Shown here one piece after another: positions 5,438 to 61,177 of a stretch of 64,000 nucleotides of DNA (within the stretch, counting starts at the first letter, position 1; the number at the start of each line of letters is the position of its first letter). A program made the position numbers and the translations under genes. The notes beneath the pieces were generated by a model. That model saw only the letters and a list, made by a program, of their open reading frames with translations. It made no database searches and was not told the DNA's origin. The DNA comes from an uncultured Bacteroidota bacterium. Lineage in GTDB: Bacteria > Bacteroidota > Bacteroidia > Bacteroidales > P3. The stretch covers positions 176,492-240,491 of the forward strand of contig CADCEC010000002.1 in NCBI GenBank assembly GCA_902800395.1, written 5' to 3'.

Positions 5438-8224
5438 TCATTTTCTTTTGTTGAGGTAGTATTTTTTAAAGAACGGCAGGTATGCCGCGGGATCCTTGCG
5501 ATTGTAGAATGTGGCGTAGTTCTGGGTGGTGATGGGAAACTCCACATGGTCGCCGGCAGCATACTGACTGAGAGGGCTCTCCTCCTGTTGGAGGTGGCTC
5601 CAGTAATTCATAGCCTCGTCATCATTAACGAAACGGTGGATGGTGATAATCTGCGTGGTGTCGGTAAAGAGCGAGGCATTCACTTTAAAACCCGAGTTGG
5701 AGTAGTACTTGTTGTTGAATTCCACAATCTTACGCTGTAGTTCAGTAGCCTTGATGGTACGGTCGTTGATGACGATGACCATAAAGTGCTGCTGGTTTTC
5801 CCGGTAGCGGTAGACTTGAGACTCCTTAGGCAGGGCGTCCTCTTCTGTGTTTTTCTGACTGTTTGTCTGATTGATTTCCTGAGATTCGGAGCCTTCTGCT
5901 TTCTCCGAATATTCAGATTGCTCTGAAGATGAGCGGCGGTCGACAATTTCCTCGCTGTTGTAGTTGAAGGTGGAATCCATAAGGATTTCGAGCTGGGCTT
6001 TTGCCAGCGGCTGGAGGGTGTCGGAGGATGGGAGTGCCGCCAGCGGGCGTAGCACATCGACGGCGTCAACGCGCAAACCCTTCTTTGCCAACGCCAGTGC
6101 CTTGAAGTAGCGGAAACGATTGAGCATGGGATTGCCGGGATAGTTCTCCTCGGCACGGTCGGCAATGGCGATGGCTGCGGTATAGCGACCCTCGGCAAAG
6201 TCGGTATAGAGCTCCTCATAGTCGGCATCCACTATGCGTTCGCGACGAAGAAGTTCCTTATAGTATTCATTGTCGCGTATGAGGTTGGCGAAGTCGCAGT
6301 CGGGGAAGCCCATAAGCACCATATCGCGGTAGTAGTTGGCCTGTGGCGTATTGCCCTGACGGTCGTAGATTCGGTAGAGCATATAGAAGGCCTGCACAAT
6401 TTCAGGATGCGAGGTATAGTCGGAAGCCAGACGATGGTAGCATTCGAGGGCTCGCGGGATATTGTGAATGCCATCGTAGAAGATGTATCCGGCACCGAGG
6501 AGCGACACAGAGGTAAGGGAGTCGATGGAGTCGAACTGCTGTGAAGTTGTGGGCAGGTCTTTGAGGTAGTAGGCAATGCTATGGGGGTCGTTAGGATTGC
6601 CGTTGGAGCGCTGGCTTCCAGCCTGTTTGGCGTCAGCCAAACCATCATCCACAGCAGTGGTATCGCTGTCATTATCGTCTGATTCATCGTCGAAGGAGAA
6701 CATCGACATCGTAGGTTTGTTAGAGAGAACCCATAAATCCTCCAGGGGGCGCATACCCCAACGCTGACGGAAAGTCTCTTTACCTTTCTGTACGGTCTGA
6801 GGATTATAGAAATACCAGTCGCCTGTCAGAGTATTCTGCTGCGCACGGGCATCGCTGAGGAGTTCCTCCAGTAGTTCTTTTTCTTTGGCCTCTTCCTCCT
6901 GTTTCTTGAGGGTTTCTATCTTTTCGTTGATCATCGCCAACCGTTCTCCTTCCGGCATGGCGGCCACAGATTTCAGACTATCGCAACGTTCGTAGACGCG
7001 GGTGAACGAGACGAGTTCGGTGAGCATGTCGTAGCGTCGGTGGATGGCGGAATAGTTAGGGTAGTCGGGCGTGATGTTCTGCATGGCAGTATCATAGTAA
7101 CGCTGCGCTTGGTCATAGTCCTCGAACACGTCATACAGCACTTCACCCATTCGGAGTGCCGACTGGGCCTTCTGCGCCTTGTTGACGGTGGCGGCAGCGA
7201 CGCTGAGGCGGTAGTTATCACAGGCTTTCTCGGGCTGCTTGACACCGAGATACATCTCGCCTTTGGCGAAGTATATCTGATCTTTATACTCCTCATTTTT
7301 CTTGTCGGAAAGCATCCTGTCGAGTCTCCGCTCCAGTTTCGTGATATCCGCATGCTCAAGATCGGCACAGGAAGCCTCTCCCAACTGGGCGTTGAACTTC
7401 ATGACATACGGCGGATTGCAATCGAGCACCTCGCCATAGTATTTGGCAGCGACAGAACGCTTGTCGAGTTTGCGGTAGATTTGCGCCATTATAAAATAGA
7501 GTCGCGCGCGCGCGTAACTGTCGGAGGTAGCATCGATGGCCAAGTGAATGTACTCGACGGCTTTCTTGTATTTCTCCTGCGGTAAGGTAGCTTCCACCAT
7601 TGCCATATAGAGCTTGTCGCGCTGCGAGCGCGAGAAGTTTCCTTTGTCGAGGTTGCGCACCAGTTGATCGAGAGTAGCCTCTGCTTCAGGATATTGCTTC
7701 TCCATTGTCTGACAGCGCGCCAAAAGAACAGCTCCTTCGTCGCCAGCACGGGTACCGATGAACTGACTGACAAGAATATTGCATGAGTTGGCGGTGGAAA
7801 CATAGTCGTGTTTGTAGAATGAGGCATAGGCTGTCAGAAGATAGCACTCCTTAATATAAGGCACATATTCTTCGCCTTTGATGAAGATGCTGTGCTTCTG
7901 AATGCCTTTGACTCCCTTTTCTATTGCACGGTCAAACTCTGGATTCAGGCTGCGAGCCAATTCGTCGGTGCCAAGGTTTTCAACAGGGATAATCTGAGTA
8001 TAGTCGTCGACAGCTTGTTTCTTAAGTTTCAACCGTCCGGCTTTGAGGCTTTCGTTGCCGTTCCACCAAACATTGTAGTGGCAGGTAATGTTATGGAACT
8101 GAATATTGGTCCATTTGGCCTTCTGCGTGGAGCACGAGGGAAGTAAGAAGGAAGAACCAAGAACTATGAGGCAAACCACGCCCCAAAGAGTTCTCTTTTT
8201 CAATATGTCGATTTTTTTCCGCAT
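5438..8224 (-). CDS. PorW/SprE-like TPR lipoprotein of type IX secretion
   Basis: This is a 928-residue outer-membrane-directed lipoprotein: the signal peptide ends at LPSC with lipidated Cys31. The start of the mature protein (CSTQKAK...FHNITCHYNVWWNGNESLKAG) matches the PorW/SprE family, whose members have CST then H-N-x-T-x-x-Y-N-x-x-x-N. TPR helices follow across about 130-450 and 560-740. The rest is charged, with a Glu/Gln-rich segment near 770-790 and a conserved C-terminal FYNRKDPAAYLPFFKKYY. PorW links the T9SS motor and translocon. T9SS cargo domains occur at 19140 and probably 31966. The signal-peptide core is encoded by a 7-bp array (8140-8174). Confidence 0.82.
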   Translation of the reverse strand: MRKKIDILKKRTLWGVVCLIVLGSSFLLPSCSTQKAKWTNIQFHNITCHYNVWWNGNESLKAGRLKLKKQAVDDYTQIIPVENLGTDELARSLNPEFDRAIEKGVKGIQKHSIFIKGEEYVPYIKECYLLTAYASFYKHDYVSTANSCNILVSQFIGTRAGDEGAVLLARCQTMEKQYPEAEATLDQLVRNLDKGNFSRSQRDKLYMAMVEATLPQEKYKKAVEYIHLAIDATSDSYARARLYFIMAQIYRKLDKRSVAAKYYGEVLDCNPPYVMKFNAQLGEASCADLEHADITKLERRLDRMLSDKKNEEYKDQIYFAKGEMYLGVKQPEKACDNYRLSVAAATVNKAQKAQSALRMGEVLYDVFEDYDQAQRYYDTAMQNITPDYPNYSAIHRRYDMLTELVSFTRVYERCDSLKSVAAMPEGERLAMINEKIETLKKQEEEAKEKELLEELLSDARAQQNTLTGDWYFYNPQTVQKGKETFRQRWGMRPLEDLWVLSNKPTMSMFSFDDESDDNDSDTTAVDDGLADAKQAGSQRSNGNPNDPHSIAYYLKDLPTTSQQFDSIDSLTSVSLLGAGYIFYDGIHNIPRALECYHRLASDYTSHPEIVQAFYMLYRIYDRQGNTPQANYYRDMVLMGFPDCDFANLIRDNEYYKELLRRERIVDADYEELYTDFAEGRYTAAIAIADRAEENYPGNPMLNRFRYFKALALAKKGLRVDAVDVLRPLAALPSSDTLQPLAKAQLEILMDSTFNYNSEEIVDRRSSSEQSEYSEKAEGSESQEINQTNSQKNTEEDALPKESQVYRYRENQQHFMVIVINDRTIKATELQRKIVEFNNKYYSNSGFKVNASLFTDTTQIITIHRFVNDDEAMNYWSHLQQEESPLSQYAAGDHVEFPITTQNYATFYNRKDPAAYLPFFKKYYLNKRK
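8140..8174. repeat. Heptamer array encoding the PorW-like signal peptide core
   Basis: Five 7-bp units (gaagtaa, gaaggaa, gaaccaa, gaactat, gaggcaa) encode residues about 18-29 of the lipoprotein signal peptide. The same unit family is found intergenically at 8227, 15822 and 51791. Confidence 0.75.
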
Positions 8225-8226
8225 AT

Positions 8227-8254
8227 TTCTTAGTTCTTACTTCTTAGTCCTTAG
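8227..8254. repeat. Intergenic heptamer array (TTCTTAG family)
   Basis: Units ttcttag, ttcttac, ttcttag and tccttag fill the gap between ychF and the PorW-like gene. They run up to the ychF stop codon at 8256-8258. Confidence 0.8.
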
Positions 8255-8255
8255 T

Positions 8256-9356
8256 TCAGACATTAAATCTAAAGTGCATAATGTCTCCGTCCTGTACGAC
8301 GTAGTCCTTGCCTTCGACAGCTATCTTGCCGGCTTCGCGGCATTTGGCTTCGGAGCCGAGGGTGACATAGTCGTTGTACTTGATAACCTCGGCACGAATA
8401 AATCCACGCTCGAAGTCGGAATGGATAATTCCCGCAGTCTGAGGTGCTTTCATACCCTTCTTGAAGGTCCATGCACGGCACTCCTTGGGGCCTGCGGTGA
8501 GGAAGGTCTGAAGCCCAAGTAAACGGTAGGCGGCTTTGATGAGGCGGTTCACACCGCTCTCCTTCAATCCCAAGTCTTCGAGGAACATCTGTTTTTCCTC
8601 ATAGGTCTCCAACTCGGCAATGTCGGCCTCGATGCCGGCTCCGATGAGCAGTACCTCGGCATTCTCATCCTTGACGGCCTCACGGACAGCCTCAGAGTAT
8701 TTGTTTCCATTCACCACTGAACTCTCGTCGACATTGCAGACATAAATGACAGGCTTGGTGGTGAGAAGCATGAGGTCGCGAGCCACTTCGGCTTGGTTTT
8801 CATCAAGTTGGACGGTACGTGCACTCTTACCGGCTAAAAGCGCCTCTTTGTAGAGATCCATCACTTCAACGAGTTTTTTGGCGCGAGCGTCGCCACCGGC
8901 TTTGCCTTTCTTTACCTCCTTGTCGTATCGGTTCTCTATAGTCTCCAAGTCTTTGAACTGGAGCTCAAGGTCGATAGTAAGCTTGTCGCGCACAGGGTCT
9001 ACGGTGCCGTCGACATGGGTGATGTTGTCATCATCGAAACAGCGTAAAACATGGATGATGGCATCGCAGTTGCGGATGTCGGCCAGAAATTTGTTGCCAA
9101 GACCCTCCCCTTTCGAGGCACCACGGACGAGACCGGCGATGTCGACAATCTCGACAGTGGCAGGAACGACAGAAGCCGGGCGCTCAATTTCCACCAGTTT
9201 GGCGAGGCGCTCGTCGGGAACGGTGATAACACCCACATTGGGCTCAATAGTGCAGAACGGGAAGTTGGCTGCCTGAGCTTTAGCGTTGCTCAAGCAGTTG
9301 AAGAGCGTCGACTTGCCCACGTTAGGCAGTCCTACGATACCACATTGCAGACTCAT
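8256..9356 (-). CDS. ychF: Ribosome-binding ATPase YchF
   Basis: This 366-residue protein is the Obg-family P-loop protein that prefers ATP and associates with the ribosome. It has the G1 motif GLPNVGKS at 8-15, the switch region DIAGLVRGASKGEGLGNKFL around 70-90, a helical-hairpin insertion and a C-terminal TGS domain ending in DGDIMHFRFNV. Length and sequence are as expected for the family. It lies between the PorW-like gene and a GT2 glycosyltransferase, with 7-bp arrays in both gaps, so its apparent operon may be broken into separate transcripts. Confidence 0.97.
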   Translation of the reverse strand: MSLQCGIVGLPNVGKSTLFNCLSNAKAQAANFPFCTIEPNVGVITVPDERLAKLVEIERPASVVPATVEIVDIAGLVRGASKGEGLGNKFLADIRNCDAIIHVLRCFDDDNITHVDGTVDPVRDKLTIDLELQFKDLETIENRYDKEVKKGKAGGDARAKKLVEVMDLYKEALLAGKSARTVQLDENQAEVARDLMLLTTKPVIYVCNVDESSVVNGNKYSEAVREAVKDENAEVLLIGAGIEADIAELETYEEKQMFLEDLGLKESGVNRLIKAAYRLLGLQTFLTAGPKECRAWTFKKGMKAPQTAGIIHSDFERGFIRAEVIKYNDYVTLGSEAKCREAGKIAVEGKDYVVQDGDIMHFRFNV

Positions 9357-9360
9357 AGCA

Positions 9361-9388
9361 AGTTTAAAGTTTAATGTTTAAAGTTTAA
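9361..9388. repeat. Intergenic heptamer array (AGTTTAA family)
   Basis: Units agtttaa, agtttaa, tgtttaa and agtttaa lie between ychF and the GT2 gene, reaching the GT2 stop codon at 9385. Confidence 0.8.
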
Positions 9389-10320
9389 AGTTCTTTCTCA
9401 ATGAGGTATTGGTTACGGGTGCTACTGTTGCGGCAGATGAGTTCGCCGAGGAAGCCCGCCAGGAATAGCATCATGCCGGCCAACACGAAGAACATCGAGA
9501 GGTAGAACCAGACACTAGTGGTCAAAGCAATATGTCCCGTCATGCGAAGCACCAACAGAACAATGAGTGAAACGAGACCGAAGAGGCCCGACATGGTGCC
9601 CACAGCGCCGAAGAAGTGCATGGGTTGCTTGCCGAACTTCGACATAAACATGATACTCATCAAGTCGAGGTAGCCATTGATAAAGCGGCTCATACCGAAC
9701 TTGGTGACGCCGAATTCGCGTTTGCGGTGCTGGACGACCTTCTCGCCAATTTTTCCAAAGCCAGCCCACTTGGCGATGACAGGGATGAAGCGGTGCATCT
9801 CGCCGTAGACCTCAATGCTTTTCACGACATCGTGGCGGTAGGCTTTGAGGCCACAGTTGAAATCGTGCAGATAGATACCGCTCATACGGCGGGTGGTCCA
9901 GTTGAAGAACTTCGAAGGAATGTTCTTTGCGAGTTTTGAATCGTAGCGCTTCTTCTTCCAGCCGCTGACAAGGTCATAGCCTTCGTCTTTAATCATGCGA
10001 TAGAGCTCGGGGACCTCGTCGGGACTATCCTGCAGGTCGGCATCCATGGTGATGACGACGTCGCCTTCGGCGGCGGCGAAGCCGACATTGAGGGCGGCGG
10101 ACTTGCCGTAGTTGCGACGGAATTTAATACCACGATAGCAGGGATTATCAGCGTGGAGTTTCTCGACAGCCTGCCAAGAGCCATCGCGACTGCCGTCGTC
10201 GACAATGATGACCTCGTAGCTGAAGTGATGCTCTTTCATCACTTTGTCAATCCATTCTGCCAGATGGGGCAGCGACTGGTCCTCGTTATATGAAGGTACT
10301 ACAATTGATATTTGCTTCAT
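9385..10320 (-). CDS. GT2-family glycosyltransferase, DPM1/GtrB type
   Basis: This 311-residue membrane-attached enzyme has an N-terminal GT-A domain at about 1-220 (VPSYNEDQSLP, VDDGSRDGS, DADLQDSPDEVPEL with the DxD metal site). Two C-terminal membrane helices lie at about 228-255 and 262-290. This architecture is typical of GtrB/ArnC/DPM1-like enzymes that transfer a sugar from a nucleotide donor to a polyprenyl phosphate carrier. The sugar cannot be told from sequence. It is followed on the same strand by ychF and preceded by the DUF4199 gene 17 nt away, suggesting cotranscription with the DUF4199/AsmA-like pair. Confidence 0.9.
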   Translation of the reverse strand: MKQISIVVPSYNEDQSLPHLAEWIDKVMKEHHFSYEVIIVDDGSRDGSWQAVEKLHADNPCYRGIKFRRNYGKSAALNVGFAAAEGDVVITMDADLQDSPDEVPELYRMIKDEGYDLVSGWKKKRYDSKLAKNIPSKFFNWTTRRMSGIYLHDFNCGLKAYRHDVVKSIEVYGEMHRFIPVIAKWAGFGKIGEKVVQHRKREFGVTKFGMSRFINGYLDLMSIMFMSKFGKQPMHFFGAVGTMSGLFGLVSLIVLLVLRMTGHIALTTSVWFYLSMFFVLAGMMLFLAGFLGELICRNSSTRNQYLIEKEL

Positions 10321-10853: not shown

Positions 10854-13800
10854 CTAACGTTTCTTTCCAGTTCTTTACGTATCATAGCCTTCAGTTCGAG
10901 GGCTTTCTTTGTGGCAGCTTTTTTCTTCTCCGGTTTGTAGAAATCGCTGTAACGGACACTACCCAAGCTAATGCTGGGGTCGGAGAACGGTCCTTTGATA
11001 TCCACAGCCAACCTGACAATCAAGGGGCTCTTCAACATCTCAATGTGATAGTTGCAAAGGTTGTCCAAATTGTGTGTGCCAGAGAGGCAGAACTTATAGC
11101 TGCCCATGTTAAGCAGGAAGGGATAAACCTCAATCTCTTTTCGGAAACAGGTCATCTCCACATCCATGCTGTCGATTCTAATCTTATTGTCGTTGTCCTT
11201 CCAACTCTTGAGACCAAGGAGTTTGGCCGTCCGAGAGAGCGACTTGTCGTCGAAGACAACAAGGTCTTTGCCGCTGATGGCCGCGGAGCCCAGCAAAGAG
11301 CTCATCTTTGGCTGATAACGAGCATCGAGGAACGTCTCGCCAGCCAGATGAAAGTCGGCATTCCCGTTGAAAGCTTTCAGCATCGGTACCAGCGTGTCGA
11401 TGCAGGGTATCATGTCTAGTAACTCGTCGATTTGGATATCGAGCAGATGGAAGTCGATGGAAGTGAAGAGATTGTTCGGGCGTGGCGACTTGTAGATGGC
11501 CGTGAGCTGCATGCGGGCAGCCTTACAGACGAAGCCCATCTGGTCGAGTACCGCAACACCGTCTTTCACCGTCAACTCGCCCGAGAGGTCGCGCAAATCA
11601 TTCCCAAAAGCCACGCTGCGTTTGATGTGGGTATTGACGGTAAAATTCACATTCCTTGGAACTATAAAGGGGGTAGCATCAGCCGGCACCGTGTCCTCTT
11701 TTCTCATCTCCTCAAGTTCGTCGGCATCGCTACCGGCACCGCTGAAGAGGTTCATCAGCTGGTCCACATCGGCATAGTCTGACGTAAGGTTCAGGTAGCC
11801 CGTCAACAATTCCTCGTCATCTAACCATTCTTCAATATTCTCAATCTTGCCGAAGATGTCGAGATCTGTATGCCCCATCATCAGCTGAGCCGAAAGAATT
11901 TCACATTCCTTCTCATTGCATTTCACATCAAGGTCCGTTAGTTTCAAAGCCTCAGGAAGTCCCGGCGTGAAGAATGTTGTATTGTGTGTCGTGAAACCCA
12001 GACGAGGAGTGAATTGCGACAGCAAACCATCCTTGGTATTATCTTGTTTTATCGAGCCTTTCAATTGCAAACCACCTGTCGAGAGTGTCGTCTCATCCAA
12101 AGCGGCCTCCGATTCACCCATTGCGAAAGAGAAGTCGGCCTCGATAGCATTCATTATCACATCATTGACAGCCAGCATGATGTCGAATTTTCGGCACTCG
12201 CTTTCGAGACGGGCGGGACCAACTTCCATCATCAGATTGCCATCGCCACCGCCACTGATACGCACGTCGGCCAACTTCCCATCCTGCTGCTGGGCAGGCA
12301 TCGCTACAACAACGTTCATCTCGGGGAATGAAGCCTCCATGCCTTCGAAGTCAATATTTGTTTCACGTAATTTCAGGTTGGCGGCGACCAGCATCTTCTC
12401 GAAGTTCTTTGTTGCGAGATCTTTCATGCTGAATTTAACCTTTGCATCGAGGGTGGCATTGCCCTCGGCTTCAAGTTCCATATCCTCGGGCAGCAATGGG
12501 GCTATATTGTCCAGCGGAACGTCGGCTGTCAAATCGCCAGCCACTCGCATATTGCCCATCAAGTCGTCGGCACGGCCCGACAGTAAAATCTGACTCTCGT
12601 TTGCTTTCACCCGCAGATTGTCGACTTTAGCTGATGAGACACCCCCTTTATTCATATCCAGATGTGCCGCCACTTTACCAGACACTCCGAAGAGGTTGTA
12701 GGGCAGCATTGTCGTATCGGCGTATCGGCCTTCTCTCACACTCACATTGGCATCTACCACAGGTATTGCACTGTCGCTCACCTCCCCTTTTGCGGAGACC
12801 TTCAGATGCACTTTGCCGTCGACCTGCATTTTCTTGAGGAACGAGGCATAGTTTTTGGGAATCATCGATAGCACACGTTTCAACTGCCATTCGCCATCGC
12901 TGGCAAGGGTAACATCGACTAACATAGAAGAATCCAGCACCACTTCGCCGCCCACCAACAAGCCAATGTCGGTGATGTTGACGGTCGACTCCTTGATGCT
13001 CAGCTTTTTGTTAATCATATTGTAGCGGAATGGTATCTGCGTCTCCAGCAAGGGCAACTGCGACTTCTGTAGCGTTTCGTTGACCATGGGCTGGCCGGCG
13101 AGGTCGAGGGTACCACCCGTCAGTAACAATGCGAGACCACCTTCGAGACTGCCTTTGTTGCTGGCAGCGTTGAGGTCTACCACCAAGCCTTCGAGTACTG
13201 TCGCCAATGAGGGGACGCCAGTGCTGTCGGTCATCGTCAGCGCCACCTTCTCCCCACCGAGTTCCATCACGGCACAGGCAGCAAGTCCTTTCTTGTCGAC
13301 ATCGGCGGCGAGGGTCAGGTTCTCAATTTCCGCTTCCGTCTTTCCACTTTCCACATTCCGCGTTCCACTCAAACTGTTGCAAACCATCTGTAGTTTGCCG
13401 GCGATATCGCTGTCTTTGATTTTTCCGTTCACCGCCAAATCCAAGCCGCAAAGCTCGGCATCAATGCCATCGCGCTCGTCTTTCAACTTGGCATTGAGAT
13501 TATTTATCTCAATCTTCTTCAGGTCAATCAGTTTAGGCAACTGCGTGGGAGTGGTGTCGGTGCTGGGCGGGACGATGGCCAGATTGCTACGACCTTCTTT
13601 ATCAATATAGATATTGGCTTCTACATTGTCCACAATCACCTGGTGGACGATAAGTTCGTCGTCCTTCAGGAACGCCATCAGGTCGATACCCAGCGTCACA
13701 TCGCCAATATGGGCAAGGGTGTCGTTGGGTGTTCCTGGGATTTTCTTGATGAGTGTCACATCTTTGAGCGCCAGTCCTGCATCGGGATAGGTGGAAATGA

Positions 13801-14999: not shown

Positions 15000-15809
15000 T
15001 TCTTCCATCACCACTCTCAGTCCAAAATACTCCTGTTTCATCGTCGGCAGGTACCAACTGCGGTCATAGACCGTGCAGGCTGGCGAGGTACTGTTGTAGT
15101 GACCACCGCGCAGTATTTTGTTCTCTCCTTCTCGTGGGCCGCGGGGATTCTCCTGCATCTCAGCACTGTAGGCCTCCATCCAGTCTTGACACCATTCCGC
15201 CACATTGCCGCTCATATCGTAGAGTCCAAGCTCGTTGGGCAGCCGCTGTCCCACAGGATGCGTCTTACGTTCGCTGTTCACGCAGTACCAGCAGTAGCGG
15301 TCAAGTTGTCCCCTATCACATCCCGAGAATGCGGATGTCCTCGTCCGTCCTCTGGCGGCAAACTCCCACTCGGCTTCTGTCGGCAGACGGAATCGGCGGC
15401 CGGTCATTTGGCTCAGCATGATGGTGAAGCGCTGCGCCTCTTCCCAACTCACATTTTCCACAGGCAGGCTGTCGCCACCAGCGAATTTGGATGTATTATC
15501 TCCCATCACAGCAACCCATAGTGCCTGTGTCACCTCAAAGCGGCCGATGTAGTAGTTGTCCACCGTCACCTTGTGTTCGGGACGCGACGCCTCGTAGGTA
15601 ATCTTCACCCCTTTCGGAGGTTCATTGTTTCCCATCGTAAACGTGCCACCCTTCACCCACACCATATCGATGGTCACACCATCGACCACGCTCACACGGA
15701 CTACACTATCCTGTGCCCTTGCCGGAACTATGAGGTAAGAACTAAGAGCTAAGAAAGCCATAGCCCAGCGGATACCGCAAGGCAGGCTATACTTTTTTTT
15801 GTTCTTCAT
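14997..15809 (-). CDS. Secreted SUMF1/FGE-fold protein
   Basis: This 270-residue protein has a signal peptide (cleavage after ARAQ, about residue 33) and a formylglycine-generating-enzyme-like domain (VKGGTFTMGNNEPP, EVTQALWVAVMG, RFRLPTEAEWEFAARG, LYDMSGNVAEWCQDW, KILRGGHYNS). The C-terminal Cys pair that catalyses formylglycine formation in true FGEs is not present in the expected place, so enzymatic activity is doubtful. Bacteroidota use this fold in many surface proteins, including T9SS GldJ/GldK. The ATG at 15809 is chosen over an in-frame TTG at 15818. The signal-peptide core is encoded by a heptamer array (15725-15759). Confidence 0.85.
   Translation of the reverse strand: MKNKKKYSLPCGIRWAMAFLALSSYLIVPARAQDSVVRVSVVDGVTIDMVWVKGGTFTMGNNEPPKGVKITYEASRPEHKVTVDNYYIGRFEVTQALWVAVMGDNTSKFAGGDSLPVENVSWEEAQRFTIMLSQMTGRRFRLPTEAEWEFAARGRTRTSAFSGCDRGQLDRYCWYCVNSERKTHPVGQRLPNELGLYDMSGNVAEWCQDWMEAYSAEMQENPRGPREGENKILRGGHYNSTSPACTVYDRSWYLPTMKQEYFGLRVVMEE
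15725..15759. repeat. Heptamer array encoding the SUMF1-fold signal peptide core
   Basis: Units gaactat, gaggtaa, gaactaa, gagctaa and gaaagcc encode residues about 18-29 of the signal peptide. Two of the units also occur in the PorW-like signal peptide array. Confidence 0.75.
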
Positions 15810-15821
15810 TGTTATCAAAAC

Positions 15822-15849
15822 TTCTTAGCTCTTACTTCTTAGCTCTTAG
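15822..15849. repeat. Intergenic heptamer array (TTCTTAG family)
   Basis: Units ttcttag, ctcttac, ttcttag and ctcttag lie between pyrE and the SUMF1-fold gene. They contain the pyrE stop codon (15846-15848). Confidence 0.8.
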
Positions 15850-16499
15850 TTCATGTGTTCCTCGCTCCACTGCTCGGGGTTCTTGCGCCAAGCCGAAAGG
15901 CTTTCGAAGTCCTCGGGACGCACATACTCCTTCTCATGGGCCACCTGTATCAGGGTGTCGTAGTCGGTCAGCGTCATCAGCTCCACATTCTCGTTTTCGA
16001 AGTTGTCGGCAGCCACCTGCAAGCCATAGGTAAAGATGGCGGCCATACCCTTCACGATGCAGTCTTTCTCACGCAGGGCTTTCACGGCGATGAGGGAACT
16101 CTTGCCCGTCGATACGAGATCCTCGATGACCACCACCGACTGACCGGCATGAATCTCACCCTCAATCTGGTTCGTCAGACCGTGGCTCTTGCTCTCGGAG
16201 CGGACGTAGACAAAGGGGCGATTGAGTTCCTGTGCCACCAGTGCGCCCTGGGCGATGCCGCCCGTCGCCACACCGGCGATGACATCCACATTCCCCCACG
16301 TCTCGTTGATAATCTCCACGAAGCGCTGGCGAATGAAAGTGCGAATCTCAGGATACGACAAAGTGACCCTGTTGTCGCAATAAATAGGCGATTTACGCCC
16401 CGAAGCCCACGTGAAAGGATGCTCATTATTGAGCTTTACTGCTTTCACTGTCAATAAAAAATCTGCCGTCTTAGCGGCCATATCCTTGTTTGTAATCAT
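15846..16499 (-). CDS. pyrE: Orotate phosphoribosyltransferase
   Basis: This 217-residue enzyme converts orotate and PRPP to orotidine monophosphate in pyrimidine synthesis. It shows the type-I PRTase PRPP loop VVVIEDLVSTGKSS, the HPFTWASGRKSPIYCDNR substrate region and the VRSESKSHG catalytic lysine loop. A longer in-frame ORF reaching 16742 is rejected because it crosses both promoters of the divergent gap. The ATG at 16499 lies only 4 nt after a TATTTTTG box, so the mRNA may be leaderless; alternatively translation starts at the ATG at 16481. pyrBI lies 6 kb away. Confidence 0.96.
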   Translation of the reverse strand: MITNKDMAAKTADFLLTVKAVKLNNEHPFTWASGRKSPIYCDNRVTLSYPEIRTFIRQRFVEIINETWGNVDVIAGVATGGIAQGALVAQELNRPFVYVRSESKSHGLTNQIEGEIHAGQSVVVIEDLVSTGKSSLIAVKALREKDCIVKGMAAIFTYGLQVAADNFENENVELMTLTDYDTLIQVAHEKEYVRPEDFESLSAWRKNPEQWSEEHMN

Positions 16500-16629: not shown

Positions 16630-19029
16630 ATGAAGAAATTAACCTTATCACTCCTCGCGCTTGCAACGCCATTTTTGGCCTCTGCAAGCGAAGCGAACCT
16701 CAAGATGCCAGAGAATTTCTCCGACGATCCACAAACTTCCATCCTCTATTGGGGCTTCGCCGTCGTCGTCCTCGGACTTCTCTTCGGATTCTGGCAGTTC
16801 AGCAAAATCCGCAAACTACGTGCCCACAAGTCGATGCTTGAAATTGGCAACGTCATCTTCAAGACCTGTTCGACCTACCTGAAGCAGCAGGGCAAGTTCC
16901 TCTTCTTCCTGTTCCTCATCATTGGTGCCGCTATCGCACTTTATTTCGGTGCTCTCGAAGGAAAAGCTTTTGGCGATGTGCTGCTCATCCTCTCCTGGAC
17001 AGTCATCGGTATCCTGGGTTCCTACGGTGTCGCTTGGTTCGGTGTCCGCATGAACACCTACGCCAATGCCCGCATGGCTTTCGCCAGCTTGCGCCGTCGT
17101 CCCCTCGACCTGCTGAATATCCCGCTGCGTGCCGGTATGTCTATCGGTATTGTGCTCATCTGCATCGAGCTGGTGCTGATGCTCGTCATCCTGCTCCTCA
17201 TGCCCGGTGACCTTGCCGGCAGCTGCTTCATCGGCTTTGCCATCGGCGAATCGCTCGGTGCTTCCGCCCTCCGTATCGCTGGTGGTATCTTCACCAAGAT
17301 TGCCGACATCGGAAGCGACCTGATGAAGGTGGTCTTCAAAATCGGTGAGGACGATCCCCGCAACCCCGGTGTCATTGCCGACTGCACTGGCGACAACGCT
17401 GGCGACAGCATTGGACCCACCGCTGACGGCTTCGAGACCTACGGCGTCACCGGCGTGGCCCTCGTCTCTTTCATCCTCGTGGCTGTCCCCGAGGAATACC
17501 GCATTCCCATGCTCGTATGGATTTTCGTCATGCGTATCCTCGGCATCGTGGCCTCCGTCCTCGCGTACTATATTAATAGCGCCCTCTCCACCTCCAAATA
17601 CAAGAATGCCGACGACCTCGACTTCGAGAAACCGCTCACCTCGCTGGTGTGGATCACCTCTATCCTCTCCATCGTCGGAACCTTCTGCGCCTCCTACTTC
17701 ATGCTCCACGAGGCCCTTCCCGGCAACGCCTGGTTGGCTCTCGCCACCATCATCTCCTGCGGCACCCTCGGCGCAGCCCTCATCCCCGAACTTACCAAGA
17801 TCTTTACCTCGCCCAAGTCGAAGCATGTCGACGAGGTGGTCTCCGCTTCCAAGCAGGGCGGCGCCTCGCTGAATATCCTCTCTGGCCTCGTGTCCGGCAA
17901 CTTCTCCGGCTTCTGGACGGGTCTCGTCTTCTTCGTCCTGATGCTCGCCTCCTACTTCGCCTGCGAAGGCTTCGGTCTCACCGCCATCCTGCCCGTCTAT
18001 CCCGCCATCTTCGCCTTCGGCCTCGTGGCCTTCGGCATGCTGGGCATGGGCCCCGTCACCATCGCTGTCGACTCCTACGGTCCTGTGACCGATAACGCCC
18101 AGAGCGTCTACGAGCTCTCCCTCATCGAAGATGATATCGAGAAGACCACCAAGGAGGTGGAAAGCGAATTCGGCTTCAAGCCCGACTTCGAGAAAGCAAA
18201 ATACTACCTCGAGGCCAACGATGGTGCCGGCAACACCTTCAAAGCCACCTCGAAGCCCGTACTTATCGGCACCGCCGTTGTGGGTGCCACCACCATGATT
18301 TTCTCCCTCATCGTGATGATTAAGGACGAACTCGGCATCCAGCCCGAGGCCATCCTCAACCTCCTCAACCCCTACTCCATCCTCGGATTCATCCTCGGCG
18401 GCTGCGTCATCTACTGGTTCACCGGCGCCTCCATGCAGGCCGTCACCACGGGTGCCAACCGCGCTGTGGAGTACATCAAGGACAACATCAAACTTGACGC
18501 CAACGCCCCCAAGAAGGCCGACACCGAGAAGAGCCAGGAAGTGGTCAAGATTTGCACCAACTACGCTCAGAAAGGCATGATCAACATCTTCATCGCCATC
18601 TTCTGCTTCGCCCTGGGCTTCGCCTGCATCTCCTCGCCCGAGAGCATCGGTGGCAACAACGCCATCTGCCTCTTCATCTCCTACCTTATCTCCATCGCCG
18701 TCTTCGGCCTCTTCCAAGCCATGTTCATGGCTAACGCCGGCGGCGCTTGGGACAACGCCAAGAAGGTGGTAGAGGTGGACCTCAAGGCTAAGGGTACCGA
18801 CCTCCACGACGCTTCCGTGGTGGGCGACACCGTCGGCGATCCCTTCAAGGACACCTCCTCGGTGGCTCTGAACCCCATCATCAAGTTCACCACCCTCTTC
18901 GGAGTCCTCGCCATGGAGATTGCCATCAGCGCCAGCTTCCAGGCTGCCGCCCCCTATGTCGGCATCGGCTTCCTCCTCATCGCCCTCTACTTCGTCTACC
19001 GCTCGTTCTACAAGATGAGAATCAAATAA
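16630..19029 (+). CDS. hppA: Membrane-bound ion-translocating pyrophosphatase
   Basis: This 799-residue polytopic inner-membrane enzyme couples PPi hydrolysis to H+ (or Na+) export. The catalytic core reads DIGSDLMKVVFKI, EDDPRNPGVIADCTGDNAGD and SIGPTADGFE at about 232-270. The position that decides K+ dependence is Lys538 (GNTFKAT); Lys there is the K+-independent state in characterised families. The core differs from the usual NVGDNVGD form and fits the divergent Bacteroidota/Chlorobi subgroup. The N-terminus looks like a cleavable signal or first helix (residues 1-20). The stop codon is the first unit of a heptamer array, and a strong terminator follows. Confidence 0.95.
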   Translation: MKKLTLSLLALATPFLASASEANLKMPENFSDDPQTSILYWGFAVVVLGLLFGFWQFSKIRKLRAHKSMLEIGNVIFKTCSTYLKQQGKFLFFLFLIIGAAIALYFGALEGKAFGDVLLILSWTVIGILGSYGVAWFGVRMNTYANARMAFASLRRRPLDLLNIPLRAGMSIGIVLICIELVLMLVILLLMPGDLAGSCFIGFAIGESLGASALRIAGGIFTKIADIGSDLMKVVFKIGEDDPRNPGVIADCTGDNAGDSIGPTADGFETYGVTGVALVSFILVAVPEEYRIPMLVWIFVMRILGIVASVLAYYINSALSTSKYKNADDLDFEKPLTSLVWITSILSIVGTFCASYFMLHEALPGNAWLALATIISCGTLGAALIPELTKIFTSPKSKHVDEVVSASKQGGASLNILSGLVSGNFSGFWTGLVFFVLMLASYFACEGFGLTAILPVYPAIFAFGLVAFGMLGMGPVTIAVDSYGPVTDNAQSVYELSLIEDDIEKTTKEVESEFGFKPDFEKAKYYLEANDGAGNTFKATSKPVLIGTAVVGATTMIFSLIVMIKDELGIQPEAILNLLNPYSILGFILGGCVIYWFTGASMQAVTTGANRAVEYIKDNIKLDANAPKKADTEKSQEVVKICTNYAQKGMINIFIAIFCFALGFACISSPESIGGNNAICLFISYLISIAVFGLFQAMFMANAGGAWDNAKKVVEVDLKAKGTDLHDASVVGDTVGDPFKDTSSVALNPIIKFTTLFGVLAMEIAISASFQAAAPYVGIGFLLIALYFVYRSFYKMRIK

Positions 19030-19061
19030 TAGTTAATAGTTAATAGATAATAGATAATAGT
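19027..19061. repeat. Heptamer array (TAATAGT family) starting at the hppA stop codon
   Basis: Units taatagt, taatagt, taataga, taataga and taatagt. The TAA of the first unit is the hppA stop codon. Confidence 0.88.
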
Positions 19062-19062
19062 T

Positions 19063-19098
19063 AAATCCTCCGGTAGGTGACCCTGCCGGAGGATTTTT
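19063..19098. terminator. Bidirectional terminator between convergent genes
   Basis: A 15-bp stem (AAATCCTCCGGTAGG / CCTGCCGGAGGATTT, one G-U pair) with a 4-nt loop is flanked by A/T tracts on both sides. It serves hppA (+) and probably the T9SS cargo gene (-). Confidence 0.88.
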
Positions 19099-19101
19099 CA
19101 A

Positions 19102-19153
19102 TTCTCAATTCTCAATTCTCAACTCATAACTTTTAACTATTATCTATTAACTA
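19102..19153. repeat. Two heptamer arrays at the 3' end of the T9SS cargo gene
   Basis: Three ttctcaa units and a ctcataa are followed by ttaacta, ttatcta, ttaacta. The second block encodes the last residues (IVNR) and the stop codon of the minus-strand gene. Confidence 0.8.
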
Positions 19154-20264
19154 TCACCACCTCTCCCCTTTCTCGTCCGTCCTCGCAGGTGATGCGGAGC
19201 ACATAGGTGCCGATGGGGAGTGACCTAAGGTCAATTTTCAATTCTGAATTCTGATTTCTAAAATCTGAAATTTTATGCCCTTGCACATCGAAGACCGCCA
19301 CTGCCTTCACCCCTTGTGAAGGCAGATGGATGATGCCTGTAGTGGGATTGGGATAGATGGTGAATGACTGGGAGGTTGGGTGACTGAGTATCTGGCTGGT
19401 GCTGCTGAAGAAAGCGGTAAGGTCGAGGGTGAGCAGTTGAGCGGGATGCGTGATACCATAGGCGTCCAGGTGCTCACAGGTGAGATAATAATGGAGGCCG
19501 TCGGTGGTAGCGATACCTTCCGTCTGCCAACCAATGCCGTTGGTGAGCTCCACCCTCTGTTGCCGTCCACTGGCGAAATCGCTGCCCGAGAAGCCGTCGA
19601 AGAGGTACACAAACGGCATACAGAACAGGTTGTATCCACAGAGTACCAGTCGACCTCTTTCCGGCTGGTAGCAGGCACCTGTCACCATGCCTTCGGTGGC
19701 GATGTCGAACAGCCGTCGCGCTTCCCAGCGGCCGGGAGTCTTGGGAATGGAATAGCAACTGCCGCCTTGGGACAGCCACTGCTTGGTAAAGAGAATTAAC
19801 GCCGTATCGGTAGCCACGAACGCCTCGCAGTCGAAGTCCTGGGCGCTACTATCCGTGCGGTCGGGATAGGAGAACCAGAGAGTGTCGAAGGCAATAGCAC
19901 CCGACGCCAAAGCCGCTTTCTCCAGCCGCAGTACATGCAGGTCGTTGCGCACGCCATTGTTGTCACCCATGTCGCCGAAATAAAGGTATTCGTCATCCTG
20001 CGTCACCTCCTCTAGATCGTAGATGGAGCGTGGGAGGACGATGGAGTCGGTGATGTTACCGCTGAGGGTGTCGAGGGCGTAGAGTACAAGTGAGCCGTGG
20101 TCGTTGCAGCTCCAAAGCTTTCCGTCGAGAAAGAACAGCGTCGAAGTACCCTCCATCTCTGTCGGCAGGTCGCCCACCACCTCCGCCGTAGGACGCTCCT
20201 GCCCCTGTGCCAGCACAGGAGAGAGTATCAGCAACACCCATAATAACATCGAAGAACGTTTCAT
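19140..20264 (-). CDS. Secreted beta-propeller-like protein with T9SS type A sorting domain
   Basis: This 374-residue protein has a signal peptide (to about residue 20, AQGQ), a beta-rich region (about 25-285) with recurring WSCNDHGSL / YLYFGDMGDNNGV-type blades, and a C-terminal Por secretion tail. The tail begins FTIYPNPTTGIIHLPS and ends LPIGTYVLRITCEDG...VVIVNR, the classic type A pattern. It should be exported by the type IX system and attached to or released from the surface. No catalytic site is recognised. It has a divergent promoter shared with the repeat-protein gene at 20352. Confidence 0.85.
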   Translation of the reverse strand: MKRSSMLLWVLLILSPVLAQGQERPTAEVVGDLPTEMEGTSTLFFLDGKLWSCNDHGSLVLYALDTLSGNITDSIVLPRSIYDLEEVTQDDEYLYFGDMGDNNGVRNDLHVLRLEKAALASGAIAFDTLWFSYPDRTDSSAQDFDCEAFVATDTALILFTKQWLSQGGSCYSIPKTPGRWEARRLFDIATEGMVTGACYQPERGRLVLCGYNLFCMPFVYLFDGFSGSDFASGRQQRVELTNGIGWQTEGIATTDGLHYYLTCEHLDAYGITHPAQLLTLDLTAFFSSTSQILSHPTSQSFTIYPNPTTGIIHLPSQGVKAVAVFDVQGHKISDFRNQNSELKIDLRSLPIGTYVLRITCEDGRERGEVVIVNR

Positions 20265-20940: not shown

Positions 20941-21003
20941 AATTAGGAATTAGGAATTAGGAATTAATAAAGTTTAAAGTTTAAAGTTTAAAGTTTAAAG
21001 GTT
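20941..21003. repeat. Two adjacent heptamer arrays
   Basis: Three aattagg units and one aattaat are followed by four aaagttt units and one aaaggtt, filling the gap before the TPR lipoprotein gene. Confidence 0.88.
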
Positions 21004-21022
21004 ATAGGTTCTTGAATAAGTA

Positions 21023-21937
21023 ATGAATAGATATAGATATATTTTTTTGCTGGTTTTTGCGTTGGCGGTGGGGTGTCAGGGAAATGACAGCTCGCTGCTG
21101 ATTACCGACGATATGTCGGACAGCGCAAAACTGGAGACCCTCGACCGGCAGCTGGAGAAGGAGCCTGACGACCTCCAGGCACATTTCCTCCGCGCCCAAG
21201 TGCTCTTCCACATGGGGCGCAACAGTGAGGCTATGATGGATATCGATAAGTCCCTCAAGGGCGAGCCCGACAATGTGGATTTCCTGCTCCTCAAGGGCGA
21301 CATCTGCCTGAAGAACGGCAATATGGCCGACTGCTACAAGGTGTTGCAGCACGCCGAGGAGGTGGCACCCGACAACCAGGAGGTGCTGCTGAAGATGGGC
21401 GAGATTACCTTCGACAGCAAGGACTACGACCGCTCGCTGGAGTACCTCTCCAAAGTCACCGCCAAGGATGAGAACAACCGTGCGGCGCTCTTCATGAAGG
21501 GTTATATCTATAAGGAGAAGGGCGACACGGCCAGTGCCGTGCAGTTCTTCCGCCGCGTCTGCGACAAATACCCCGACTATGCGCTGGCCTTCGAGGAACT
21601 CGGTGTACTCTATGCCAGCCGAAACGAGAACATGGCGCTGGAATACCTCAACACCGCCGCCAAACTCGACCCCTCGAACACCAACACCCTCTACGCTCTG
21701 GCGATGTTCTACCAGGACCGCGAGGACTTCGATAACGCCGAAGCCCTTTACCACCAGATTCTCGATCTCAACGAACGCTCCGCCGACGCCTGGCATAACC
21801 TGGGATGGATAGAGCTGACACACTACCACGACTATGACCGCGCCATCGAATACTTCGACAAAGCGCTCGCTATCGACCCGCAGATGGAGAACGCCATCAT
21901 CAACCGCCAGCTGGCGATTAAGGAAAGTGGAAAGTGA
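21023..21937 (+). CDS. TPR lipoprotein
   Basis: This 304-residue protein has a lipoprotein signal peptide (LAVGC, lipidated Cys18) and seven or so tetratricopeptide repeats from about residue 38 to the end, with classic A-x-x-x-LG-x-x-Y and P-x-x-x-x-A spacing (DNVDFLLLKGDICLKNGN, YALAFEELGVLYASR, ADAWHNLGWIELTH). TPR lipoproteins of this type serve as scaffolds in outer-membrane assembly or secretion; no partner can be named. The last codons (ESGK and stop) are encoded by two ggaaagt heptamers. pyrB follows after about 100 nt of repeat-rich DNA. Confidence 0.85.
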   Translation: MNRYRYIFLLVFALAVGCQGNDSSLLITDDMSDSAKLETLDRQLEKEPDDLQAHFLRAQVLFHMGRNSEAMMDIDKSLKGEPDNVDFLLLKGDICLKNGNMADCYKVLQHAEEVAPDNQEVLLKMGEITFDSKDYDRSLEYLSKVTAKDENNRAALFMKGYIYKEKGDTASAVQFFRRVCDKYPDYALAFEELGVLYASRNENMALEYLNTAAKLDPSNTNTLYALAMFYQDREDFDNAEALYHQILDLNERSADAWHNLGWIELTHYHDYDRAIEYFDKALAIDPQMENAIINRQLAIKESGK

Positions 21938-21988
21938 AGAGAAATGAGAAATAGGTTAAAGTTTAAAGTTTAAAGTTTAAGGTTTAAA
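21922..21988. repeat. Heptamer arrays overlapping a gene end
   Basis: Two ggaaagt units (21922-21935) encode the C-terminus of the TPR lipoprotein and lead into its TGA stop codon. Five units of the gtttaaa family (21954-21988) follow before pyrB. Confidence 0.82.
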
Positions 21989-22042
21989 GGTTATGAGAAA
22001 GGAGAAATGAGAATGATAAACAAACAAAACACAACATATATC

Positions 22043-22960: not shown

Positions 22961-22985
22961 TAGATAATAGTTAATAGATAATAGT
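22958..22985. repeat. Heptamer array between pyrB and pyrI
   Basis: Units taataga, taatagt, taataga and taatagt. The first TAA is the pyrB stop codon. Confidence 0.88.
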
Positions 22986-22990
22986 TAACA

Positions 22991-42866: not shown

Positions 42867-42875
42867 AACAGTTAT

Positions 42876-43968: not shown

Positions 43969-43994
43969 AATTATTTATTTTTAATTGTTAATTG

Positions 43995-51790: not shown

Positions 51791-51878
51791 GAACTCAGAA
51801 GTAAAAACTAAGAAGGCTGCCGCGATTCATTGATGCGACAGCCTTCTTAGTTCACAGCTCTTACTTCTTAGCTCTTAT
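51791..51878. repeat. Heptamer arrays flanking and forming a terminator
   Basis: Units gaactca, gaagtaa, aaactaa and gaaggct (51791-51818), and ttcacag, ctcttac, ttcttag and ctcttat (51851-51878). The second block contains the kdd stop codon. The inner units of the two blocks pair in the terminator stem. Confidence 0.75.
51808..51850. terminator. Bidirectional terminator between rhomboid gene and kdd
   Basis: A 12-bp stem CTAAGAAGGCTG / CAGCCTTCTTAG extends inward by CGC / GCG with one mismatch. Confidence 0.82.
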
Positions 51879-58375: not shown

Positions 58376-58376
58376 A

Positions 58377-59069: not shown

Positions 59070-59071
59070 AA

Positions 59072-59740
59072 TTACCTCATATCAATGACATCAATCTCCG
59101 GATGCGCTTTGGTATCGAAGGAGAAGCTTCCCTTTACTTTGCCGTATTTCTGTTTCGAGAAAGTGTAAATCTCGCGGCTGGAGTCGTATTTGTGTACTTC
59201 GATGCATTTCAGCTCACCGCTTTCCTCGTTGATGAGGAGACGTATCTTGTGGAAACTCTGTGCCGAACGCGGCTGGAGGTCTATCACCGCCGTGCCATCA
59301 TCCTCAGTGCGAATGTATTTCTCGCGGAAGTTCTTCTTGTAGTGCGCCATAAGGCTGGCAGGATTCAACAGATTCATGCCGTCATCTTCTTCAATACTGT
59401 TGACGGTCACCTCTTTGGCTTTCTTGTTCCAGTACCAGACACTCTTACCATCGCTGACAATCTCTTCCTCGGAGGTCACAACGCTGTATTTACTACCCTG
59501 ATATTTCACCTCAGCATCACGCTCGAAGATCTTCTTTTTCTGGCTGTCGAGGGCCGTCATCTTCACCGTAAAACTGGCATTGTCGAGCTTTTTGATAGCC
59601 TTCTTCAGCACCGCTGTGGCGTTCTCGTCGAGGCGACCCTGCGAGTTATGGGTGATTTGAGCCGATGCCGAGTGGAAAGTGGAAAGTGAAAAGTGGAAAG
59701 CGAGGATAGCGCAAAGTGATATTTTCAGTAAACTTTTCAT
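59072..59740 (-). CDS. lolA: LolA-like outer-membrane lipoprotein carrier
   Basis: This 222-residue periplasmic protein has a signal peptide (1-27, SASAQ) and the LolA fold (FTVKMTALDSQKKKIFERDAEVKYQGSKYSV, SDGKSVWYWNKKAKEVTVNS), which ferries lipoproteins from the inner to the outer membrane. Many lipoproteins in this window would be clients. The ATG at 59740 is chosen because the longer ORF to 59872 runs out of frame inside folE. Residues 12-23 of the signal peptide (ILAFHFSLSTFH) are encoded by a heptamer array. Confidence 0.88.
   Translation of the reverse strand: MKSLLKISLCAILAFHFSLSTFHSASAQITHNSQGRLDENATAVLKKAIKKLDNASFTVKMTALDSQKKKIFERDAEVKYQGSKYSVVTSEEEIVSDGKSVWYWNKKAKEVTVNSIEEDDGMNLLNPASLMAHYKKNFREKYIRTEDDGTAVIDLQPRSAQSFHKIRLLINEESGELKCIEVHKYDSSREIYTFSKQKYGKVKGSFSFDTKAHPEIDVIDMR
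59672..59706. repeat. Heptamer array encoding the LolA-like signal peptide core
   Basis: Units agtggaa, agtggaa, agtgaaa, agtggaa and agcgagg. This is the same family as the arrays inside clpC and the AsmA-like gene. Confidence 0.82.
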
Positions 59741-59742
59741 AA

Positions 59743-60363: not shown

Positions 60364-60406
60364 TTAGTATAAAGTAACGCGGGAAAATTGTAATTTAGTA
60401 TAAAAG

Positions 60407-61150
60407 TTATTCTTTATAATCAAATAATTGCATCTCCCCGTCGGGGGTAAGGACGGCGTAATTGCGGTTGTGGAGCCAGTCACCAGTGTTCACATAAACA
60501 CTATTACTGACATCCATCATTAGTGGCGTATGGCGGTGGCCGAAGACGCAGTAGTCGAAGTGCTCTTTCTGCAGACGTTCCTTCAAATAGATGACGATAC
60601 CCTCGCGGTCGTCACCCAGGTAATGCAGCATATCGCGCTTGGCATGCTTGCGCTTATTGCCATCACTCCAGCGGTGGGCAATACCGAAAGTAAAACTTGA
60701 AGGAAGCATCTTAAACAAGCTCTGGCAGAAGCGACTACGGAAGAACACTCGCACAAAGTCGAACCAGCGGTCAGTATGTCCGAGGCCGTCGCCGTGCCCT
60801 ATCAGGAAGCGCTTCCCATAGAGTTCCATCTCGACGGGTTCGTCGTGGATGATGGCCCCGAATTCCTGCGTGAGGTAGTCGAACACCCACATGTCGTGGT
60901 TGCCAATGAAGAAGTGTATCTCCACCCCACTGTCTGCCAACTCGGCCAGCTTGCCGAGGATGCGGGTGTGTCCGCGCGGCACCAGGTAGCGGTAGCTGAA
61001 CCAGAAGTCGAATATATCGCCCAACAGCATCAAGGTCTTGCAGTCGTCCTTGATGCTGTCGAGCCATCGGCAAAGTTGGCGTTCCCTCTCGAGAGTGTCC
61101 GCCCCACTGCCCAGATGCGCGTCCGAAACAAAATAAACCTTGTCCCTCAA
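60407..61150 (-). CDS. lpxH: UDP-2,3-diacylglucosamine diphosphatase
   Basis: This 247-residue peripheral membrane metallophosphoesterase is the lipid A pathway step releasing UMP. It has the two-metal motifs SDAHLG (8-13), LLGDIFDFW (42-50), GNHDMW and IGHGDGLG. The only good start is a TTG at 61150, since no in-frame ATG precedes the conserved DAHLG motif. That TTG directly follows a TAATAGW heptamer array, so the array forms its upstream region. Confidence 0.93.
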   Translation of the reverse strand: MRDKVYFVSDAHLGSGADTLERERQLCRWLDSIKDDCKTLMLLGDIFDFWFSYRYLVPRGHTRILGKLAELADSGVEIHFFIGNHDMWVFDYLTQEFGAIIHDEPVEMELYGKRFLIGHGDGLGHTDRWFDFVRVFFRSRFCQSLFKMLPSSFTFGIAHRWSDGNKRKHAKRDMLHYLGDDREGIVIYLKERLQKEHFDYCVFGHRHTPLMMDVSNSVYVNTGDWLHNRNYAVLTPDGEMQLFDYKE

Positions 61151-61177
61151 CTATTATCTATTATCTATTAACTATTA
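61150..61177. repeat. Heptamer array between lpxH and the envC-like gene
   Basis: Units actatta, tctatta, tctatta and actatta. They include the envC-like stop codon (61175-61177) and touch the lpxH TTG start. Confidence 0.85.

Follow-up and report, generated by a model that had tools for sequence, protein, structure and literature searches.

A 64,000-nt stretch from the draft genome of an uncultured Bacteroidota bacterium of the order Bacteroidales (assembly GCA_902800395.1, contig CADCEC010000002.1, positions 176,492 to 240,491; G000:C2:176492-240491 in our numbering), called the window below, carries pyrB, pyrI, and genes resembling pyrE, gyrA, clpB, lolA, and an M16 peptidase. Short tandem arrays, most of them with a 7-bp unit, lie between and within these genes (Table 1). 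The genome (G000) comprises 2,405,839 bp in 21 contigs, and 464 kb of its 2.41 Mb was sampled as the window plus twenty 20-kb stretches picked by position. Arrays were called with a relaxed and a strict detector, array coordinates in the window were taken from Tandem Repeats Finder, and genes were called with a custom codon-usage script, not a standard gene finder. For comparison we used the loci of the best 80 of 583 relatives by PyrB (1.41 Mb); among the matches listed, the nearest named records come from metagenome assemblies of rumen and other gut Bacteroidales and include "Candidatus Colimorpha" species at 87 to 94%. The genome G117 and the locus L041 are treated as one genome, the sister species, with 84.0% DNA identity between L041 and the window over 10.5 kb. 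Two extra stretches, G023:C4 and G036:C24, were chosen for pattern matches; one of them, L139, enters the column-variant, pair-sharing, and junction-motif counts and was left out of the G036 array rate. The contig 1 stretches of G005, G008, and G020, with a G+C content of 0.000, were taken as runs of N. The arrays are unlikely to be assembly artefacts, since they are short and some of them occur at orthologous places in the records of other species.

The 7-bp period stands out. An earlier note, made from the letters of the window alone, had reported a dense set of 7-, 9-, and 11-bp arrays, argued that their density implies a generating process, and named random-sequence simulation as the check. 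With the relaxed detector, the window holds 25 period-7 arrays, against 0.20 (maximum 1) under a Markov null and 0.43 (maximum 2) under a local-composition null, each with 30 randomizations; the other periods from 5 to 12 give 2 to 9 arrays, the 9 belonging to period 9, against 0.2 to 0.6. The strict detector finds 12 period-7 arrays in the window but none in any of 50 dinucleotide shuffles, and periods 4 to 24 yield at most 2 arrays each save multiples of 7. Both sets of null models thus reject a chance origin, and the sequence-diverse arrays do imply a process that generates them. Composition alone was also rejected as an explanation, since the sister species has the same sampled G+C content (0.527) and different unit counts. 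The sequence families that the note had named were recovered at or beside their places: TAATAGW at 19027, 22955, and 61151; TTCTTAG at 8227, 15822, and 51845; GTTTAAA at 9360, 20968, and 21956; AATTAGG at 20941, 42876, and 42929; and GGAAAGT at 13340 (and 13319), 21922, 35482, and 59671.

The same holds for the rest of the genome as sampled. In the twenty 20-kb stretches the strict detector counts 76 arrays of period 7, 7 of period 8, 4 each of periods 9 and 10, and 8 of period 11, and the 464 kb as a whole carry 19.0 period-7 arrays per 100 kb. In the intergenic DNA of G000, exact tandem duplications of at least two copies are near or below expectation at 5 bp (49 versus 62.6) and 6 bp (21 versus 21.3), exceed it about 12-fold at 7 bp (91 versus 7.3), and number 8 versus 2.3 at 8 bp, 4 versus 1.1 at 9 bp, and 9 versus 0.1 at 11 bp. 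Intergenic autocorrelation peaks at lag 7 (z = 22), followed by lags 14 (z = 13) and 21 (z = 11), with short lags also raised, e.g., lag 3 (z = 12). The arrays are therefore heptanucleotide long simple sequence repeats, with a 7-nt unit in excess of chance and of neighboring lengths. Other species use 8 or 11 bp as well as 7: the strict detector found 41 arrays of period 7, 24 of period 8, and 49 of period 11 in the 80 related loci, none of the remaining periods between 4 and 13 exceeding 5.

With the threshold lowered slightly, 117 arrays were placed relative to genes: called genes hold 39 of them, co-directional gaps 62, divergent gaps 6, convergent gaps 4, and stretch edges 6. The arrays are enriched outside genes, as only 39 of 117 are genic though 77.8% of the DNA is called coding. 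Since 7 is not divisible by 3, a run of three units presents the sequence in every frame, and stop codons sort the arrays accordingly. Among the 101 arrays of at least 21 bp, 16 of the 20 whose unit has no stop on either strand lie in genes, compared to 13 of the 33 with one stop-free strand and 6 of the 48 in which both strands contain stops (P = 1.5e-7 for 16 of 20 versus 6 of 48). This pattern matches a location-blind generator followed by selection, and the process looks blind to location and filtered by selection.

Sites can be compared between species. Among 28 strict arrays of the window and three other stretches of G000 (L013, L020, and L026), 21 are anchored on both sides in the sister species, and the 7 unanchored ones stand outside the site counts. 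The sister has an array (score of at least 10) at 12 of the 21 sites, ten of period 7, one of period 8, and one of period 10, compared to 5 of 21 array-free gaps (P = 0.058, two-sided); persistence of array sites is thus suggested but not firm. By our reading, 3 of the 12 shared sites keep the unit, 1 keeps the type, and 8 differ, and at the 8 anchored AAAGTGG sites the sister never has AAAGTGG. Cases of unit replacement at orthologous sites are thus shown. The looser window arrays give the same picture: at 43968, TTAATTG faces TTAATTTG in G117, a change from 7 to 8 bp in all units. The loop of the M16-peptidase-like gene has TTGAGAA in the window, GGTGARA in L040 and L042, and 8-bp units in L041. 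Copy number also changes, since an 8-bp array at one site has 12 units in L070 (9900-9995) and 4 in L080 (9964-9995), and a second site in the same two loci differs by one unit.

Two further explanations can be weighed at the pyrB-pyrI spacer. One assigns the arrays a function, as DNA or RNA elements close to where genes start and stop, in translation initiation, regulator binding, or all-frame termination, as proposed for TAACTGA in Beggiatoaceae. L041 shares the TAATAGW array of this spacer, with equal copy number and identity over 31 bp despite the 84% DNA identity of the locus; 62 of the 72 arrays that are neither genic nor at edges lie in co-directional gaps, a gap class that covers 54,263 of 77,447 intergenic bp; and certain unit columns hardly vary in unlinked arrays. 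However, the spacer has unrelated units or none in other close relatives. By eye, L045 has TAATAGW with substitutions and the same copy number, and L042 a decayed form; L040, L046, and L047 have ATTGAAA-like units, L049 and L050 have TTTAAAG, L061, L070, and L080 have 8-bp units, and many others show no clear array. With the unit changed at 8 of 12 shared sites and a third of the arrays (39 of 117) inside called genes, we regard a function of this kind as unlikely. The other explanation, phase variation by copy-number switching, can point to a 7-bp step that shifts the reading frame, to arrays lying in or before genes, and to the 8-bp arrays that differ in copy number between two species. Yet the neighbors include the housekeeping genes pyrB, pyrI, and ClpB, and the pyrB-pyrI copy number is equal in three species, so this array at least is not hypervariable; we consider phase variation very improbable.

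Table 1. Arrays of the window, numbered from its first base. The array rows carry no strand assignment ("."). Blank cells, nothing reported or given in the text.
Array	Coordinates	Setting	Sister species	Fold
TTCTTAG	8227..8257	Fills gap between two minus-strand genes	~9-bp array (by eye)	
TTTAAAG	9360..9392	Between two minus-strand genes	TTAANNN array, other variants	
CTTTCCA (GGAAAGT family)	13340..13369	Within called gene	No two-sided anchor	
TAAGAGC/TAAGAAC	15725..15755	Inverted partner of 15820-15852	AATGAAA units	
TTCTTAG/CTCTTAG	15820..15852	Adjoins pyrE-like gene	TTCTTCA	
TAATAGW	19027..19064	End of plus-strand gene, ahead of terminator-like hairpin		z -6.5 (19027-19139)
TCAATTC, then TAACTAT	19098..19154	Far side of the hairpin that follows 19027..19064		
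AATTAGG	20941..20966		Not anchored	
TAAAGTT	20968..21010		Not anchored	
GGAAAGT, TTAAAGT, GAGAAAG	21922..22013	Upstream of pyrB	Spacer shorter, different	
TAATAGW	22955..22988	Fills pyrB-pyrI spacer, contains pyrB stop codon		
TTGAGAA	24394..24424	Variable loop of M16-peptidase-like gene		
11-bp inverted arrays (separate class)	31734..31795	Upstream of gyrA-like gene		Hairpin, z -7.6
GGAAAGT-like	35482..35525	Linker of ClpB-like gene	Related but different repeat	
AATTAGG/CCTAATT inverted pair	42876..42956	Between two minus-strand genes	Absent	Hairpin, -38 kcal/mol, z -7.6
TTAATTG	43968..43997	Between two minus-strand genes	TTAATTTG, 8 bp	
AATGAAA	46426..46473	Divergent gap		
TTCTTAG-like	51845..51877	By hairpin between convergent genes		z -5.7 (51791-51874)
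GGAAAGT	59671..59700	Near start of LolA-like gene	Not anchored	
CTATTAT (TAATAGW family)	61151..61180	Gene junction	Identical unit	

Neighboring arrays share units in both orientations. With four genomes pooled (G000, G117, G002, and G036), identical units occur in 29 of 100 array pairs at most 150 bp apart, 17 direct and 12 inverted, in 11 to 13% of pairs up to 2 kb, and in 8.6% at 2 to 20 kb, compared to 1,006 of 18,749 pairs (5.4%) between stretches of one genome and 1.5 to 4.9% between genomes. The difference between local and between-stretch pairs has a Fisher P of 6e-14, the pairs not being independent. The close pairs with identical units number 11 of 31 in G000, 6 of 25 in G117, and 9 of 20 in G002; G036 has no local excess, with 3 of 24 (0.125) against 0.145 at 2 to 20 kb. 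A private unit dialect for each genome was considered and is weighed against by two results: G000 and G036 share identical units in 0.049 of pairs versus 0.054 within G000, and split-half unit similarity, 0.66 in G000 and 0.55 in G002, falls to 0 to 0.39 in four genomes with few arrays.

The explanation that we prefer, and to which we give about an even chance, is that replication slippage and local template switching, working in steps of 7 nt, create and renew the 7-bp arrays, which would have no sequence-specific function. Slippage, which we infer from the whole-unit copy differences between L070 and L080, would add or remove whole units; template switching and fold-back, to which local sharing in both orientations points, would let a growing strand switch to, or fold back on, a nearby array, so that neighbors come to share a unit, direct or inverted. 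Generation would be blind to location, and selection would spare arrays where a 7-bp step is harmless, as in gene spacers, gene ends, and loose protein linkers, leaving mainly stop-free units inside genes. Tolerant sites would stay arrays while the unit swaps or drifts, sometimes from 7 to 8 bp, and the step itself would presumably be set by the replication or repair machinery.

Several results weigh against slippage and local template switching as the whole explanation. Slippage by itself should give a smooth spread of unit lengths, with no preference for 7 over 6 and 8; the pyrB-pyrI copy number is unchanged in L041 and L045; the excess of persistent sites over array-free gaps stays at the P value given above; and one-strand stop-free units within genes take the open strand in only 10 of 13 cases (P = 0.09). 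The distribution of units weighs against it as well. The 117 arrays comprise 41 canonical units, led by AAAGTGG (21 arrays) and AAACTTT (16), and genome-wide counts of three-copy patterns (both strands, overlapping) in G000, G117, G001, and G002 are 56, 4, 0, and 0 for AAAGTGG, 4, 32, 43, and 56 for AATTGAA, and 0, 7, 0, and 40 for TTAAGAA. Sisters of equal sampled G+C content thus differ by 56 to 4 in one unit and by 4 to 32 in another. Variants moreover recur at the same columns in unlinked arrays. All 9 TTAACTA arrays vary in column 4, and column 7 changes to T, C, or G, with the other columns varying in at most one array; in the 22 GGAAAGT arrays, changes are commonest in column 7 (C in 9, A in 4, G in 1), followed by column 2 (A in 4, T in 2). 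These counts cover units inside arrays only and carry no P value; a P of <0.0002 for the column excess in GGAAAGT included edge units, so the in-array counts are relied on instead. For TTAAAGT the column excess is weak (P = 0.45 for the maximum, 0.044 for the sum of squares).

The unit-count differences and the recurrent columns suggest either exchange beyond neighbors or a sequence-biased generator. A more tentative reading, well behind slippage with local switching, takes the 7-bp arrays as a genome-wide replicator without a gene of its own: the period would be inherited and units would be copied near and far by homology-driven template switching, one unit taking dozens of unlinked sites while the sister fills the same sites with others. 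If this were true, the 7-nt step would be a trait of the replication or repair machinery that can be measured. Whole-array copying between unlinked loci, scored as shared variant order, gave 20 pairs versus 12.8 expected, and 19 of 200 permutations reached as many.

That last result also bears on a short mobile element of REP or MITE type, with a head such as TGCGTCAGC, because whole-array copying is not significant. Among 566 arrays from G000, G117, G002, G036, and the 80 related loci, TGCGTC occurs 21 times in the 30 bp on the 5' side of the pyrimidine strand (3.0 expected), and a TGCGTCAGC-like motif family, defined post hoc, flanks 41 arrays 5' versus 6 arrays 3' (P = 2e-7); a composite of array and flank is repeated several times within 2 kb in L022, a stretch of G000. 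More than 90% of arrays lack the motif, however, so that common ends or flanks are not general, though a minority subset could have them. Several matches lie, by eye, in apparent terminator hairpins or signal-peptide coding sequence and may therefore be ordinary context. The only clearly empty sister site is that of the inverted pair at 42872, missing in G117, with no clean insertion evident by eye. A mobile element is improbable as the general explanation. Of the processes put forward in the earlier note, slippage and template switching fit the data, and a self-contained mobile repeat fits less well, the junction motif at a minority of arrays keeping it alive.

Array content varies widely among relatives. 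Of 120 genomes in the genus, 84 have matches to TTAA at every seventh position, with counts between 0 and 184 and the highest in G000, and an AATT control class in the same genomes reaches 276 in G002 (per-genome match counts are complete). In an order-level draw, 99 of 247 genomes have TTAA-every-7 matches, with big differences inside single genera, such as 0, 215, and 86 in three genomes of f31/g32; a narrower 20-mer was found in 8 of 61 relatives. The strict period and the spread from 0 to 184 TTAA-type matches would be expected of a dedicated enzyme, a reverse transcriptase or special polymerase, that writes 7-nt repeats. Yet RVT_1 has no match in the array-rich G002, G023, and G064 (94 to 98% complete) and is present in the array-poor G020 and G029, and IMS is found in 109 of 120 genomes, the array-rich ones without it being incomplete (the 11 genomes lacking IMS are 59 to 92% complete). 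Neither RVT_1 (46 of 120) nor IMS tracks richness by inspection, and both were rejected as sole determinant; a dedicated enzyme seems to us highly doubtful. By matched span (about 435, 450, or 558 bp), the IMS matches fall into distinct forms that perhaps follow genus subgroups.

The earlier note had treated the 7-, 9-, and 11-bp arrays as one family. The period-7 excess stands, but not a shared behavior, since periods 9 and 11 are mostly other things. Period 9 exceeds chance mainly in genes (14 exact duplications versus 1.3 expected), as in-frame repetition would give. At period 11, the window has two inverted arrays able to form a hairpin. In 45 related loci selected for having no 7- or 8-bp array, 7-bp duplications number 17 versus 9.6 expected and 11-bp duplications 12 versus 0.1; the 11-bp excess persists there, and the 11-bp class is therefore separate. 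Of 20 loci, 9 have a flagged 11-bp array upstream of the gyrA-like gene (window, L041, L048, L057, L058, L061, L066, L068, and L069); the unit mostly differs from locus to locus, and the arrays form inverted pairs in the window and L066. Inverted 11-bp pairs also occur at L100:1415-1508 and L100:12048-12155, which have the same unit, and in L066, L084, and L102; L066 starts and finishes in an inverted 11-bp repeat at its contig ends. A 10-bp family, GGGAGTGARA, is present at several places in G000 (stretches L009, L014, L018, and L022), and in L022 it stands next to heptamer arrays, the composite recurring within 2 kb. The window also has 60- and 69-bp tandem repeats, both multiples of 3, in open reading frames at 20443-20783 and 32752-32965. 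Inverted array pairs apparently flank a start codon at L013:3722-3855, L171:4110-4236, and L170:1454-1570, purine-rich before the start codon and pyrimidine-rich in the apparent signal peptide.

The question "why seven" becomes testable in one genus that offers 120 genomes, 0 to 184 matches of one array class, orthologous sites, swapped units, a shift from 7 to 8 bp, and inverted local copies. The same variability cautions against taking such spacers for conserved regulatory motifs.

Heptamer tandem arrays dispersed between genes are also known as the STRR heptamers of heterocystous cyanobacteria; three STRR units gave no tandem pairs in 2.96 Mb. The earlier note knew of no described equivalent in the Bacteroidales, an order to which we take Paludibacter to belong. 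That was too strong: the genus-level Table 2 of Mrazek and Huang 2014 (PMC4060949) gives a raised Bacteroidetes median 7n3 of 0.75, with 6n3 and 8n3 at 0.00, and MacGregor 2015 (PMC4679880) describes TAACTGA heptamer repeats in five Bacteroidetes, including Paludibacter propionicigenes with two sets, and other heptamer repeats in some Bacteroidetes spacers. Our literature search, with most subscription papers outside it, returned no paper on heptamer repeats in Bacteroidales or on heptameric intergenic repeats in Prevotella, and one on heptanucleotide tandem repeats in Bacteroidetes.

An excess of heptamers in bacterial repeats was reported in 2007, with a polymerase cause proposed (Mrazek et al., as cited in PMC4679880 and PMC4692102). 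The long simple sequence repeats of Mrazek resemble the present arrays in that 7 nt is the most overrepresented long unit, for which slippage with a 7-nt polymerase contact was proposed; here, in contrast, a single genome has many families, orthologous sites change unit, and neighbors share units inverted, and the parts examined of those papers have no orthologous-site comparison in Bacteroidetes. The TAACTGA repeats of Beggiatoaceae, cyanobacteria, and five Bacteroidetes (PMC4679880) are likewise dispersed heptamers, often just upstream of start codons and rarely genic, but they form a single unit in a set orientation, whereas the units here are many and 39 of 117 arrays lie within called genes; tandem TAACTGA gave 0 pairs in our 176 sequences (2.96 Mb). 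The GGGNATC repeats of Xanthomonas and GGGGA(C/T)T repeats of Nostoc (Rehm et al. 2015, PMC4692102) are similar in form, with >180 heptamer arrays per genome, mostly intergenic, variable columns, and inverted pairs. They comprise one G-rich, quadruplex-capable family per genome, compared to 41 mostly A/T-rich units among 117 arrays here, replaced between species, and tandem GGGNATC or GGGGAYT gave 0 pairs in the same 176 sequences. For two Xanthomonas species, the majority of GGGAATC repeats were reported to sit between the same genes while varying in length and sequence (PMC4692102), so site persistence is not new in itself. Among the abstracts listed in our search, none describes the replacement of units at orthologous sites in bacteria, and it is this replacement, together with inverted local copying, that looks new against the systems already described.

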